The notes beneath the pieces were generated by a model. The model was not told where the DNA came from and did not search any database. It saw only the letters and a program-made list of their open reading frames with translations. The position numbers were made by a program, and so were the translations under genes. Source: Deltaproteobacteria bacterium (GTDB taxonomy: Bacteria > Bdellovibrionota > Bdellovibrionia > Bdellovibrionales > Bdellovibrionaceae). From it: a stretch of DNA of 64,000 nt. Shown one piece after another: positions 11,312-36,355 of the stretch (positions within the stretch are counted from its first letter, which is position 1; each line of letters starts with the position of its first letter). The stretch covers positions 1 through 64,000 of the forward strand of contig JAFLCC010000015.1 of assembly GCA_017302835.1 (NCBI GenBank). The letters are read 5' to 3'.

Positions 11312-11364
11312 AATTGTCAGTTCAGATCTAAACTTCTACAGATCAGATCAACCTCCTACACCTT

Positions 11365-12330: not shown

Positions 12331-12583
12331 TTTCTTTGCCTTTCTTCTAGCTTCTAAAAATTTACTTTAATTAAACGTAAGTTGTCAGTCTTAAAAGATT
12401 CAACTTTGCCATCTTTGAAACGATCTATTTAAAGAGCCTGTCCCCACCGATAAATTTATGGTGCGGTACAAAGGTCTTATTCCTATTTTTTGTCTTTGAC
12501 ACAGCTATATGTCCTGCTGCAATTGGAAGTGAAGTTGTTGGAAGCTTCAGACACTCATCATGAATTCTAGTTAAATTTGGAAA

Positions 12584-13381
12584 TTATTTTTCGTCGGCTT
12601 TATAGTTAGAGCCAATTGCTATAATTAACAACTGACCCTCTTCATCAGAAGAAATTTCATTAACAACATTTAATTCAATAGATGGAGCCATAGGTACGGT
12701 CATAGCCGTATCAACACCTTTTGATTGAATCTGATTTTTTCCCATCAACACAAGTTTATTGGTATTTAAGTTGGTAAAGCCGAAGAAATTAAATTGAATA
12801 TAATCCACACTATTTAAAATAAGCTCATCAGCGCTTACAGTAAGATAGGGAAACTTTATATCATCAAGTTTCCCGCAAAGAACAATAGTCTTGGCCTGAA
12901 TTGTCATCACATCTTTTGTCAATGATTGTGGAATTTTTTGAACCTTTAAGGCTCTTTCTTTGGCAAATTCGTCTGTTAATTTTTCGTCACAACCAACTGC
13001 TACTAATGATTTATCTTCGACGAGATTTGAAATACTCAGTTTTTCAATCTTTGAAGACATCGCGGGTTTAAACTTATCTCCAACTACAGGTTCCGTTCCA
13101 TCTTTGCCAACACCACTTTTAGAGAAAAGTGAAATCCGTATATCTATTTTGGAGTTATCTTTAACAATGACGCCCGAAATTTTGACATTTCCTGGCTGCC
13201 CACCCTGTTCCATAGATTTTTTAAGTAGGTTCAAAGTGTTTTGCAGGTCTTGGTTTTTTTTATTGTCCTCTTGAATTTTTTTATCCAAGTCTTTATTTAT
13301 ATCATCTGGATTTTTTACGGATCAACCGACAAGGCCAACTAGCCCTGCCAATAGAATAGAAATTAAATTTACTTTTTTCAT
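12584..13381 (-). pseudogene. Lipoprotein gene with TGA in place of the lipobox cysteine codon
   Basis: The open frame of 234 codons (12584-13288) continues upstream in the same frame through a TGA at 13322-13324 to an ATG at 13381 preceded by AGGGG. Read through, the product would start MKKVNLISILLAGLVGLVG, then the stop, then SVKNPDDINKDLDKKIQED. This is a textbook lipoprotein signal whose invariant +1 cysteine codon (TGC or TGT) has become TGA. The rest is intact: a coiled-coil-like N-terminal part and a beta-rich domain of unknown function. No internal start with a good ribosome-binding site is evident. The gene may be freshly inactivated, or the base may be a sequencing error. Confidence 0.75.
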
Positions 13382-13563
13382 ACCAAGAACCCCTTTTTTC
13401 AGATTAAGAATTTCTATCATATGGTTTTCTTTTTTTTAATAGAAATAAACCTCTTGTTCTGTATCCATGAAAAAAGAAGTAAACATTTCAAGATTCTTTA
13501 ATTAATTGTGAAAATCAATTGTTTAAGATAAAAATTCAAGCCAATTATAAAAAGGAAAGGATT

Positions 13564-14457
13564 ATGATATCAAACTGTGCTTTTGTTGCGATAGTTTCAG
13601 CGGTGCTTTGTATTTCCCAAACAGTTTTTGCCAATCTTCAGCTATTTGAAACAAATAACCAAGTTTCACAGCATGCGTATGTTGATGGTGAAGTGCTTGA
13701 ATATTTATTTGAGGATACCGAATCAACCTATGATACGGTGAGAGTAAAGGGGTTCGAACAACCAAAAAATCTTATTCTATTTCAAGAATTAAGAATCCCT
13801 TTAAAAATTAATATTTTCAAAACTGAGTCGGGGGTTCTATCACGAAGGTTGCAATTTTACGGAGCTAGCTATCGAAGTGCCGATCCCAAAAATTTTAATG
13901 CCACAGCGCCGGTTGCCTTAGAAAAAATTATTCCAAATTTTCCTGCAAATTTTGGTTACGTATATAAAAATGATCCAGCAGCTATTGGTACAACTGCTGA
14001 AATCTATAAACCCTATATGAAGAATGAGGTGGGTCAATTCGTATACTATAAGGAACTTGATGTGCATACCATACAGGGTGTGATCGATAATATTCCAAGC
14101 ACACTCAAAGTGGGAGAAATATTTCAAAAGCCAGGACAAGAAATTAAATTGCCACAGGGAGTTTTTTATAATGCCGCTACGACAATACTTTATTCAGGTA
14201 TTGAAACCATCGATAATATAAGATGTGGCTACTTTAAAGTTATAACAATGGGAAACAGCTTTCCCTTTGAAGCTGCTGGAAAATTGCAAATTTTATTCAC
14301 GAATTATCAATATGGTTTTTATGTCCCGTTGGAAGGAGCACTCACAGGACTGCTCTATCGGGGTGAATTACAAGAGACTGTCACGGTGCCAGGGAAGTCA
14401 ATCATCCAGAGACAATTTTCAATGAAGTTAATAAATCGAGAGTTAACTAAAAAATAA
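13564..14457 (+). CDS. Exported protein of unknown function
   Basis: This 297-residue protein has a clear signal peptide (MISNCAFVAIVSAVLCISQTVFA, cut before NLQ). The ATG at 13564 is chosen over the in-frame ATG at 13519 because AAAGGAAAGG lies just upstream and the signal peptide then starts normally. The mature part is mixed alpha/beta with many aromatic residues, including GFYVPLEGALTGLLYRGEL near the end. That pattern recalls periplasmic beta-rich domains of the DUF3108 kind. I do not recognise it firmly. It stands alone after the broken lipoprotein gene, which is on the opposite strand. Confidence 0.6.
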   Translation: MISNCAFVAIVSAVLCISQTVFANLQLFETNNQVSQHAYVDGEVLEYLFEDTESTYDTVRVKGFEQPKNLILFQELRIPLKINIFKTESGVLSRRLQFYGASYRSADPKNFNATAPVALEKIIPNFPANFGYVYKNDPAAIGTTAEIYKPYMKNEVGQFVYYKELDVHTIQGVIDNIPSTLKVGEIFQKPGQEIKLPQGVFYNAATTILYSGIETIDNIRCGYFKVITMGNSFPFEAAGKLQILFTNYQYGFYVPLEGALTGLLYRGELQETVTVPGKSIIQRQFSMKLINRELTKK

Positions 14458-21503: not shown

Positions 21504-21764
21504 CTATTTCAGGTTGAGTTTTTTCTCAATTTTGTCGAGGCGGACTTTCAGTGCCGCATTTTCTTCCTCTGCTTTTTGAGCCTTAACTTTGAGGTCAGCA
21601 TTTTCTGCCTTTACAGAAGCAATTTCACGATCTTTAGCGGCGTCCTTGGCTTTGAGATCTTCCACATCACTTTTGATGTCTAGAATTTTGTTATAAAGTT
21701 CCTTAATGGCGGCGATAGCGACAGAAACAATCTTTCCATACTCAAGAGAGCGGTAACTGTCTCC
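21504..21764 (-). pseudogene. Out-of-frame C-terminal coiled coil of the adhesin
   Basis: Eighty-six codons in the next frame read GDSYRSLEYGKIVSVAIAAI, then a heptad-rich coiled coil, and end at TAG 21504-21506. SLEYGKIVSV with a following coiled coil is the normal end of S74 intramolecular chaperone domains of tail-fibre-like proteins. The fragment opens right at the junction where the main adhesin frame is lost (TAA at 21765-21767), so it is the displaced end of the same gene. Confidence 0.75.
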
Positions 21765-24700
21765 TTACGATACTTAAGCCGTCAGTGATCGGAATCACAT
21801 TGGTTTTCAAGCGACCGTCAGAGACTGTCGTGTAATTCACCCAACCACCGTTTTGATAAAACTCAAAAAGAGTCGAAGTTGTATTGTAACGAATCATTCC
21901 ATTAACGGTCGTTCCCGTGAAGGTTCCTGCGCGAGGAACGATAATCGCACTGGTTGTTGTGCTTGCATCCGTAACATCTAATTTAGCTCCCGGGCTGGCT
22001 GTTCCAATACCGACGTTGCCACCATTTAAGTAAGAATCGCCACTGCCAGCTAAACGAACTGTTTGTGTTATAGTCGCATCCCAAAGATTGATGTAACCTC
22101 CCACTCCTCCCGAGGCTGAACCAATCAGCACTGTCGTATCAGTGGTTGAAGAGATTCCTCTAAGAAAAGTATTATTTTGTCCAACGCCATTTACAGTTAG
22201 ACCTATTGGGCCAGAGGAGAAAGATCCTGCTTTAACTTGTCCATTTCCCACATCTAGCGCAGAAGTTGGAGTCGCCGTACCAATCCCTACGTTCCCACCT
22301 ATATTTCCCATTATGATATTTCCAACGGATCCTGTTCCAGATTTTGTGCCGCCATTCAGAAATATGCTGCCACCATTATTGTTTCCAGCAATGGATTGAC
22401 CTCCAGTAATGTTGACATTGCCAGCAGGGCTGCTTGATCCGGCGGTGTTCGTGAATCCACCCAGGATATTCACCGCACCTCCGGTGGTTTTACCCAAGCC
22501 ACCTTGTATATTTACAGCTCCACCCGCCGTTGATGAACCACCCGACGCGTTTCCGCCCAGGAGATTCACAGGACCGCCTGCGCCACCGTTACCGCTAGTG
22601 CCTGCAGACAAATCGAGCGTGCCGCCGTTGCCAGTGAGCTTGCCTGTACCTGAAGATAAATGAATACCGCCACCCTGGGCTGCGGTTGCACCATTTGCAT
22701 GAGCCCCATTTATGTAGAACGACGTAGCATTTTCGCCGTCGACATTCGTGTTGGCAATATTCAGACTTCGACCACCAACGTTTTTCGAAACCGTGATATC
22801 GCCGCTGACTTCCAAAGCACTCGAAGGTGTCGTTGTTCCTATCCCTACGTTGCCATGTCCACTTGTCCCATTGTGTGCGAGAATGGTATTACCTGGCACC
22901 CCTGCTCCGGCATTATACCCTCCAAAGAGATAAAGAGGTCCTCCGTTTGAATTTCCGCTATAGGCATTTCCGGCAACTAAATATGCTGGACCACCTGCAC
23001 TTGAGGTGGAGGTATTCAAATACAAATTCCCCGCATAACCAAATCCATTTCGGCCAACTCCACCAGAGAGAGTTGCTCCACCAGGGTTCCCCCAATGTGA
23101 TGAACCACTTAACGTCAAAGATCCTCCGTCACCAATCGCACCGGTATATTGGGCCTTCCCTGCCGTGATTTGAACACTTCCTCCATTGATTCCTTCACCA
23201 TAGCTATTCCCTGCGGAAATTGAGATTGAGCCACCAGGATAATAACCAGACCACTGCAGTGCTGATTGCGCGACCAAGTTGATGCCTTTTCCTGCTCCGA
23301 CAGTTGAAGTCCCACCTTGCACGTCTAATATCCCTGCTGGTGTCGCTGTCCCAACTCCCACATTCCCATTGGCTAGAACCGTTAGCCCTGAGCCTGCGGT
23401 GGAGTTGGATTGCAACCTAGCTAGCACGCCGCTGGTGGAGGCTCCCGTATTGGCCACGTTTAGCAAGCCATTGGTGGAATTTAGCGAGCTGTTAGAGGTG
23501 CTCACGCTCAAAAGACTTCCTGTGGTCAAAGCATTGGCTGTCAATACCATCGGGTTCTCAGTGGTGGCCGTGGACCAATTCCATGTCTGGGCGTAATTTG
23601 TGTTATCGATGCTGTTCGTGCTGGCTGCGGCAGTCAGGGCCGAGATCGCGCCACCCCCTGCGGCAGCTTGCCATGAGGGCGCGGTGCCTGCTCCGTTGCT
23701 GGTGAGCACATAACCGCTGGTACTTGCTGGCAATCGCGAAAGTGCCGAGCTAGTCGAAGCATAGAGCAAATCTCCGATCGTGTAGCTGGACTGACCCGTT
23801 CCTCCATTAGCTGCGGGGACAGCGGCGGTCCAGCTCAGAAGGCCTCCAGTGGTGGAAGTAAGTACCGAACCTGCTGTGGAGGCCACACTTCCCGGCCAGG
23901 TGATCCCGTAGCTTGTTCCTACGGATACCGATTGGGTCAAATTCGTAGCCACGTTATTTAAAATCATTCCTGCAAAGGTGGGCGAGGCGGTCGTGCGGAT
24001 ATCCTGCGCGGTGCCCAGGGCGATCGATCCTGAACCATTCGTGATGGTGACTCCCTGATTCGCTGCTTGAGTTAAATTCGCCAAGGTAAATCCCGAACCA
24101 TTGCCAATGGCCAAAGTCCCATTCGCCGCACTGCTGGCGTTAATCCCGGTGCCTCCATATTGTGGAGCGATCGCGGTTCCGTTCCAAGTCCCTGAGGTGA
24201 TCGTGCCAAGGTTAGTGATATTCGTTTGCACCGCGCTGGGAAGAGTTGAAGAGATGGAGGGAGCTCCGGCACCACTAGTTACCAAAACGCCGTTATTAGC
24301 AGTACTCAAACCACTGACCGCGCTGCCGGCTCCGGCATAGTAGGCCAGCTGGTTCGCTGAACCTGAGTTCACTGTTCCAGAACCCGATCCCGGCGAGCCC
24401 CAAGATAAATTCCCCGCCCCATCAGAACGTAGGTACTGTGTTCCTGTCGAGTCTCCTGGGGGAAGAATAAAATTCGTAATTCCTGAAAGAGTGGGTGAGG
24501 TGAATTGCAAGTAATTGGATCCATTATAAACTCGCAACTGAGTTGCTGACAGCGTTTGCCCACTCACAGTTCCCGTGCTCACTAAATTTCCCGTGGTGTT
24601 GATCGCTGCATTTCCACCGACAGTTCCGGTGTTGATCGCCGATCCACTGACCTTCCCTGCGGTGCTCAGGGTGGGGATGTCGGCTTCCACCAGCGCGGCT

Positions 24701-25509
24701 CCTGAGGTCACACGGCCCTTGGCGTCTGTTGTGACTTTCCCATAGGTTCCTGGAGTTCCCACATCGGGTAAACCCGCAGCAACTTGAGCATCCACATAGG
24801 TTTTGTTTACCAAGTCTGTCCCCACACTCGGAGTTCCGCTCCATGACGGAGCCGCCGTAAAAGTCGCAGAACCCGGAGTCACATACTGAGAAGAACTCCC
24901 TGCGAGCAAGGCCTGCAGGTTGGTCCATTTCGTGGCATCTAATTCAGACCCAGTTGTTGAAACACCGTCAGCTAATTTCAGCAACTGTTCTTTTTTGTAT
25001 CCGCCCACCTGCATGGCTTCAATAGCTGAAGGAATAAAATTAATGGCCATCGCAGGACTCGGTTCCCACTCTCCAGCGGGGATGGTGCCATCGTTAAAAT
25101 AAACTTGTAACTTCCTGCCATCGGAAGGATTTGGAGCATAACTATTTCCTGAAGCACAATAATTTGTAGGGAACGAAAAAGCACCTCGATTGGCAAAGAT
25201 CTGATCTAATCCATAGGCGGCAGAATCAAGTCGAGTGCCCGAACCGTCATTGATAGTTAAAGTGAAAACCCCATCAGAGCCGCTCATGTCTTTAACTTGC
25301 ACTTCCTCGTACATCAGACAGTTCTCACTTCCAATGGTACGAATTTGCAGTTTAAATTGAACGCTATTTCCTTGAACAGGCTCTCCGTTGGGATTGAGAA
25401 TGCGACCGTTGTAGGTAATCCCTGCACCTATCGCAAACACTTGCGATGCAGTTAAGAAGAAAAATGAAAATATAAAAAAGATAAACTTTAGTGTTTTTAT
25501 ATTGGTCAT
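21742..25509 (-). CDS. Large tail-fibre-like surface adhesin, truncated
   Basis: This 1255-residue exported protein starts with a signal peptide (residues 1-26, ending QVFA) and an N-terminal globular domain (about 27-170: ITYNGRILNPNGEPV, GVFTLTINDGSG). Long Gly/Ser/Thr/Asn-rich repeats follow, with at least four copies of NVGIGTxxPxxxLDV and collagen-like GGxVNI/LxGG runs. SDGRLKTNV near the end is the start of an S74 endosialidase-chaperone domain, but the frame then runs out (IVRRQLPLS, TGA). The chaperone core is missing. Such proteins trimerise and fold on this domain, so surface assembly is probably impaired. The middle of the gene is much richer in GC than its neighbours. Confidence 0.8.
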   Translation of the reverse strand: MTNIKTLKFIFFIFSFFFLTASQVFAIGAGITYNGRILNPNGEPVQGNSVQFKLQIRTIGSENCLMYEEVQVKDMSGSDGVFTLTINDGSGTRLDSAAYGLDQIFANRGAFSFPTNYCASGNSYAPNPSDGRKLQVYFNDGTIPAGEWEPSPAMAINFIPSAIEAMQVGGYKKEQLLKLADGVSTTGSELDATKWTNLQALLAGSSSQYVTPGSATFTAAPSWSGTPSVGTDLVNKTYVDAQVAAGLPDVGTPGTYGKVTTDAKGRVTSGAALVEADIPTLSTAGKVSGSAINTGTVGGNAAINTTGNLVSTGTVSGQTLSATQLRVYNGSNYLQFTSPTLSGITNFILPPGDSTGTQYLRSDGAGNLSWGSPGSGSGTVNSGSANQLAYYAGAGSAVSGLSTANNGVLVTSGAGAPSISSTLPSAVQTNITNLGTITSGTWNGTAIAPQYGGTGINASSAANGTLAIGNGSGFTLANLTQAANQGVTITNGSGSIALGTAQDIRTTASPTFAGMILNNVATNLTQSVSVGTSYGITWPGSVASTAGSVLTSTTGGLLSWTAAVPAANGGTGQSSYTIGDLLYASTSSALSRLPASTSGYVLTSNGAGTAPSWQAAAGGGAISALTAAASTNSIDNTNYAQTWNWSTATTENPMVLTANALTTGSLLSVSTSNSSLNSTNGLLNVANTGASTSGVLARLQSNSTAGSGLTVLANGNVGVGTATPAGILDVQGGTSTVGAGKGINLVAQSALQWSGYYPGGSISISAGNSYGEGINGGSVQITAGKAQYTGAIGDGGSLTLSGSSHWGNPGGATLSGGVGRNGFGYAGNLYLNTSTSSAGGPAYLVAGNAYSGNSNGGPLYLFGGYNAGAGVPGNTILAHNGTSGHGNVGIGTTTPSSALEVSGDITVSKNVGGRSLNIANTNVDGENATSFYINGAHANGATAAQGGGIHLSSGTGKLTGNGGTLDLSAGTSGNGGAGGPVNLLGGNASGGSSTAGGAVNIQGGLGKTTGGAVNILGGFTNTAGSSSPAGNVNITGGQSIAGNNNGGSIFLNGGTKSGTGSVGNIIMGNIGGNVGIGTATPTSALDVGNGQVKAGSFSSGPIGLTVNGVGQNNTFLRGISSTTDTTVLIGSASGGVGGYINLWDATITQTVRLAGSGDSYLNGGNVGIGTASPGAKLDVTDASTTTSAIIVPRAGTFTGTTVNGMIRYNTTSTLFEFYQNGGWVNYTTVSDGRLKTNVIPITDGLSIVRRQLPLS

Positions 25510-26063: not shown

Positions 26064-26164
26064 ATTAAAATTTTTGCCTATTTCCCACCCTACCAAGGAT
26101 TGATGCATTGTCAACGAATTGGCCATCTTCGACGGCAACGTCACTTTAGATAATTTCCCTTAAA

Positions 26165-26230
26165 GACAAAGCAAAGACAAAGCAAAGACAAAGCAAAGAC
26201 AAAGCAAAGACAAAGCAAAGACAAAGAAAG
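26165..26230. repeat. 11-bp tandem repeat array
   Basis: GACAAAGCAAA is repeated exactly five times (26165-26219) and followed by a sixth imperfect copy (26220-26230). It lies between the 3' end of the TIGR02147 gene and the yccF start. The period is close to one DNA turn, and one strand is nearly pure purine/cytosine-poor. Copy number could vary by slippage and change promoter geometry. Confidence 0.9.
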
Positions 26231-26248
26231 GACAGAAGGGACAAGGGG

Positions 26249-34747: not shown

Positions 34748-36355
34748 ATGGCAGTACTAGAAACTGAAATTAATAGCGACTCTGAAGATTTTAAAAAAAA
34801 CAAACGGTACATGCTCGACTTAATAGAAAACTTAAAAAAACAAGTCGAAAAAATAAAACTTGGAGGAGGCTCAGACTCTCAGGAAAAACAGAAAGCTCGC
34901 GGTAAGCTCACCGTAAGGGAACGAATTCAGAACTTATTGGATCCTGGTACCAGCTTTCTGGAATTTTCAACGCTCGCTGCTTGGGGTGTTTACGATAACG
35001 AAGCGCCCTGTGCTGGTATTATAACTGGGATTGGTGTCATCCACGGCATTGAAGTCATGATTGTTGCTAATGATGCCACGGTAAAAGGTGGAACGTATTT
35101 TCCTCTTACCGTAAAGAAACATTTGCGAGCACAAGAAATAGCTCAAGAAAATGGATTGCCTTGTATTTATTTAGTGGATAGTGGAGGAGCCTTTTTGCCA
35201 CTTCAGTCTGAAGTTTTTCCTGATCGAGAACATTTCGGTCGTATTTTTTATAACCAGGCTAGAATGTCAGCTGAAGGGATTTCGCAGATTTCCATCGTCA
35301 TGGGTTCATGCACCGCTGGAGGAGCCTATGTCCCGTCAATGAGTGATGAAAATGTGATCGTCAATGAAAATGGAACTATATTTTTAGGCGGTCCGCCTCT
35401 GGTGAAGGCAGCCACAGGAGAAGAAGTCTCGGCCCAAGATTTGGGAGGGGCCCATGTTCATTGCGAAATCAGTGGCGTGACAGATCATTTCGCCGAAAAT
35501 GATTCCCATGCCCTTGAAGTAACACGTGAGATCGTAAAACATTTGAATAAACAACGTGTGGTTCATCTAAAGATGGAACCTCCCGAGGAGCCTGCTTATT
35601 CTATTGAGGAAATCTATGGAGTTATTCCTGAGGATTCCAAAAAATCATTTGATGTGCGAGAAATTATTTCTCGGCTTGTAGACGCCAGTGATTTTCATGA
35701 ATTCAAACCACTTTATGGAAAAACGTTGGTGACAGGTTGGGGACACATTTGGGGTTATCCCGTAGGAATTATTGCAAATAATGGAGTTTTGTTTAGTGAA
35801 AGCGCTTTAAAGGCAGCTCATTTTATAGAGCTTTGTGAACAACGACAAATTCCTTTAGTGTTTCTGCAAAATATCACGGGTTTCATGGTAGGTAAAAAAT
35901 ATGAAAATGAAGGAATTGCAAAGCAGGGAGCTAAAATGGTTATGGCCGTAAGCAATGCCTCTGTTCCTAAATTTACTGTTGTTATTGGTGGTTCCTATGG
36001 TGCTGGAAATTATGGAATGTGTGGAAGGGCCTTTCAGCCACGGCAACTTTGGATGTGGCCCAATGCTAAAATTTCCGTGATGGGCGGAGAACAAGCTGCA
36101 AATGTATTGCTGACAGTAAAAAAAGATCAGTTAGCTATTAAAAAACAACAAATGAGTTTGGAAGAAGAAGAGAGATTTAAAAAACCAATTCTAGATAAAT
36201 ATAGCGAAGAAAGTTCTGCGTATTATTCTAGCGCCAGGATTTGGGATGATGGAGTGATAGATCCAAAGGAAACAAGAAGAGTCCTTGCACTTGGAATTGC
36301 CGCGAGTTTAAATAAAAAATGGAGTGAGCCCAGGCAGGGTGTTTTTAGAATGTGA
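34748..36355 (+). CDS. liuB: Methylcrotonyl-CoA carboxylase, carboxyltransferase (beta) subunit
   Basis: This 535-residue protein moves carboxyl from biotin to 3-methylcrotonyl-CoA in leucine breakdown. Typical segments are [57 protein letters not shown] broken by [27 protein letters not shown] and [15 protein letters not shown]. The form [17 protein letters not shown] is specific to methylcrotonyl rather than propionyl carboxylases. ATG 34748 has AAGGAAG just upstream. It heads the cluster liuB-liuC-biotin carboxylase-carrier-lyase. Confidence 0.92.

Follow-up and report, generated by a model that had tools for sequence, protein, structure and literature searches.

The window, by which we mean the whole 64,000-nucleotide stretch of DNA analysed, belongs to contig 15 of a draft genome that totals 3.63 Mb in 35 contigs. 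Its minus strand carries a gene for a lipoprotein in which the reading frame meets a TGA directly behind the signal peptide, at the place of the lipobox cysteine, and then runs on to the original stop codon. The features of the locus, in the order in which they would be transcribed, are the following.

13544..13573, minus strand: candidate sigma-70 promoter TTGATA-18-TATAAT (11/12), upstream of the gene and proposed from its consensus match only
13325..13381, minus strand: lipoprotein (type II) signal peptide of 19 codons, start codon included, MKKVNLISILLAGLVGLVG, read from the sequence and its translation; homologs share this architecture
13322..13324, minus strand: TGA in the frame of the gene, in place of the lipobox cysteine (+1 of the mature lipoprotein); homologs have TGC or TGT
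12587..13321, minus strand: open remainder past the TGA, 245 codons, corresponding to the mature part of the lipoprotein and beginning SVKNPDDINKDLDKK
12584..12586, minus strand: original stop codon TAA, from the sequence and the list of open reading frames

Just 5′ of the ATG at 13381-13379 (-) stands a GGGG-type Shine-Dalgarno sequence (AAAAAAGGGGTTCTTGGTATG), and the signal peptide ends in LVGLVG. An earlier note on this DNA had described an ATG (13381) preceded by a good ribosome-binding site, 19 signal-peptide codons with this ending, and a TGA at 13322-13324 beyond which the frame continues; the sequence and its translation bear this description out, the frame staying open as far as the TAA at 12586-12584. 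The 234 codons that the same note had counted after the TGA have to be corrected to 245 sense codons, as 234 is the length of the mechanically called open reading frame that begins at TTG 13288.

Homologs of the part encoded behind the TGA were found in 11 of the 66 genomes of Bdellovibrionaceae, the window's own genome counted, at identities of about 21-38% and within the same family. Within the genus, a homolog was present in just one (G001) of the five other genomes, at 38% identity. Each of the 15 homologs with a read N-terminus is, by its sequence, a lipoprotein whose lipobox cysteine coincides with the TGA, and in the 13 for which the codon was read it is TGC or TGT without exception, which is the outcome that the earlier note had proposed to look for in orthologs. 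Their lipoboxes read ISSC, VAGC, SFGC, LSAC, YSGC, STGC, LAAC, TSGC, MSAC, LVGC and LFSC. The residues past the cysteine in the nearest homologs (CSYKNPAD in the closest match, CSYKSPTE in another) align with *SVKNPDD here, so that the TGA sits on the cysteine itself. Closer orthologs were sought by scanning the contigs of the genomes with the mature protein, and none was found; the same scan with the G001 homolog returned that homolog itself and nothing else.

Judged from its sequence, the locus is a broken member of a GGQPG lipoprotein family of Bdellovibrionaceae. The homology extends over the mature part and includes the GGQPG motif and two conserved cysteines. A lipobox cysteine behind a type II signal peptide likewise characterises the family; the window copy has this signal peptide, with TGA in place of the cysteine codon. 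Compared with the uncharacterised family member in G001 (C79:3855-4577, JAEUWH010000054.1), it thus shares the signal peptide, the lipobox position, the motif, the cysteine pair and a beta-rich domain, and differs in carrying TGA where the homologs have a cysteine codon. In two relatives, G082 (L020/L027) and G080 (L022/L030), paralogs of this lipoprotein family lie next to one another in tandem.

Further genes of this kind were searched for in 464 kb of the same genome, of which 400 kb were sampled stretches, a case being counted when at least 50 codons lay behind the TGA. A strict detector returned seven lipobox-cysteine genes and a loose one 30 lipobox-cysteine candidates, against one lipobox-TGA gene each time, namely this locus. 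Because these scans covered about 13% of the genome, rare further cases are possible. A genome-wide pattern search gave 122 places, and inspection by eye of the matches listed, which stop short of contig 15, revealed no further signal-peptide-like in-frame case. With this locus as the sole lipobox-TGA next to seven lipobox-cysteine genes in 464 kb, and with the cysteine of the homologs at exactly this site, the coincidence of TGA and lipobox is more than chance.

The remainder behind the TGA has kept the properties of a gene. Its codon score is 0.337 in frame versus -0.10 and 0.02 out of frame, which ranks it among the highest-scoring genes of the window, and it is of coding type along its entire length. 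Of the columns conserved in at least 80% of homologs, 22 of 26 are kept, compared with 24 of 29 in the nearest relative, and the TGA itself is one of the four that are lost. The remainder contains no second stop or frameshift. With such codons, the 735 bases would have to take up some 63-94 neutral substitutions (8.6-12.8% of sites) for a second stop to be 95% likely, and the open frame consequently sets an upper bound on the age of the lesion and dates it no more closely. An AlphaFold model of the mature part was confident (mean pLDDT 85.7) and predicts an N-terminal helix of about 34 residues followed by a beta-rich domain in a beta-helix-like arrangement. Foldseek gave no significant match for this model. 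The best matches in a second structural search were the beta-helices of ice-binding proteins (Z 5.5, rmsd 3.6-6.5, 120-132 residues aligned), values within the range of common arrangements. Pfam returned a sub-cut-off coiled-coil match and nothing else, NCBIfam and PHROGs had no match for the protein, and the best PDB sequence had E = 0.9; none of these searches supplied a fold or sequence match that points to a function.

We consider it probable that a lipoprotein gene was recently inactivated here by one nonsense change at its lipobox cysteine codon. The in-frame stop stands where relatives have a sense codon, as expected of a nonsense pseudogene, and recent inactivation, one of the explanations put forward in the earlier note, agrees with a cysteine in all homologs read and with the intact look of the remainder. 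The ribosome would make the 19-residue signal peptide alone and release it at the UGA through RF2, and the mature protein would be neither made nor lipidated. The loss would be young, given that the remaining frame is without a second lesion. It would probably be tolerated, since the gene is a member of an accessory, patchily distributed family of Bdellovibrionaceae lipoproteins, found in 11/66 family genomes. The single in-frame stop and intact remainder resemble those of bacterial pseudogenes that owe their origin to one nonsense mutation; the difference is that the lesion falls on the lipidation residue, and the case is otherwise typical.

The good condition of the remainder would be equally expected, however, if the TGA were a sequencing or assembly error in an intact gene. 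The main rival to a nonsense mutation is accordingly a wrong base, or the allele of a minority strain, with the gene intact in the living organism and its product an ordinary lipoprotein; we regard this as possible, though on the whole unlikely. All but one base of the gene looks intact, from the ribosome-binding site and signal peptide through the remainder and its conserved residues, so that the sequencing error which had also been suggested fits the gene as well as recent inactivation does. The genome is, moreover, a 35-contig draft, and one same-genus relative (‘Bdellovibrionaceae bacterium’) is a metagenome-assembled genome. Against a wrong base, single-base consensus errors are generally rare at such assembly quality (99.98% complete, 0.78% contamination), and the gene shows no other sign of error.

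That UGA is read as an amino acid at the lipobox, be it cysteine, selenocysteine or another residue, with full-length protein as the outcome, seems to us extremely improbable. The exact position on a functional residue and the open frame behind it would suit such recoding or programmed readthrough, and selenocysteine could in principle replace cysteine. Like selenoprotein genes, the locus has a UGA opposite the cysteine of its homologs; unlike them, it lies in a genome where Sec machinery and SECIS went undetected. No tRNA-Sec and no SelB exceeded the curated cut-offs in this genome, and the sub-threshold tRNA-Sec matches that were typed turned out to be ordinary Ser, Leu, Tyr and Asn tRNAs. 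The sequence after the UGA holds no SECIS-like hairpin, being no more structured than its shuffles (z = -0.35), and our literature search found no report of selenocysteine in a lipobox. A selenoprotein was rejected because neither SelB nor tRNA-Sec exceeded its cut-off and no such hairpin follows the UGA. A code with UGA reassigned was rejected as well: TGA ends 15 of the window's 49 open reading frames, including the one at 36353-36355 that had been cited as an example of a normal stop; a UCA anticodon is absent among the 32 tRNA genes found, where tRNA-Trp has CCA and tRNA-Cys GCA; and prfB, encoding RF2, is present (C10, L124) with its canonical, autoregulatory programmed frameshift site at an in-frame UGA (GGGGGTATCTTTGAC). 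The lack of a second lipobox-TGA gene in the 464 kb scanned likewise speaks against recoding. The rare readthrough that the earlier note had listed may occur as a low-level event, but it finds no support: RF2 is present, and neither Sec machinery, a suppressor anticodon nor a second case was found.

Translation of the downstream frame from the internal TTG at 13288, which would yield a cytoplasmic, unlipidated protein, is very unlikely. The TTG and its open 234-codon frame are there, but no good Shine-Dalgarno sequence precedes them, and the product would have no export signal, whereas the homologs are lipoproteins; the two conserved cysteines would end up in the cytoplasm. We give hardly any credence to a stop that is maintained, either because a signal-peptide-sized peptide acts in its own right, for example in cAD1-type signalling, or because inefficient readthrough of the UGA provides a little lipoprotein. 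Lipoprotein signal peptides do act as pheromones, as cAD1 of Enterococcus faecalis and pPplA of Listeria illustrate (PMC4379056), and the parallel is that such a peptide can function on its own without the lipoprotein. The known examples, however, come from Gram-positives.

The lipobox TGA leaves the view of the genetic code unchanged: the finding is ordinary biology and most likely not a new reading of the code. If confirmed in the reads, the nonsense change favoured above would be a clean example of a single substitution at the one residue on which the identity of a lipoprotein depends. The locus is also a warning for annotation pipelines, which would either annotate the 234-aa TTG open reading frame as cytoplasmic or overlook the lipoprotein.

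The gap at 12331-12583, between the broken gene and an AHSA1-family gene, contains short open pieces in differing frames, such as KLPTTSLPIAAGHIAVSKTKNRNKTFVPHHKFIGGDRLFK and IDRFKDGKVESFKTDNLRLIKVNF; these might be the remains of a decayed gene, and NCBIfam had no match for them. Elsewhere in the window, a 26-27-base sequence at 11315-11341 recurs at four sites of the genome (C6:102-127, C21:101-126, C7:192921-192946 and C32:6661-6687), two of these sites lying some 100 bases into their contig, and is possibly a small dispersed repeat. An open reading frame of 1255 aa at 21742-25509 (-) has a signal-peptide-like start, a G/S/T/N-rich body and unusually GC-rich second codon positions, and its predicted product is fibre- or adhesin-like in appearance. 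At 26162-26234 an 11-base unit (AAAGACAAAGC) is repeated in tandem, in 6.6 copies.
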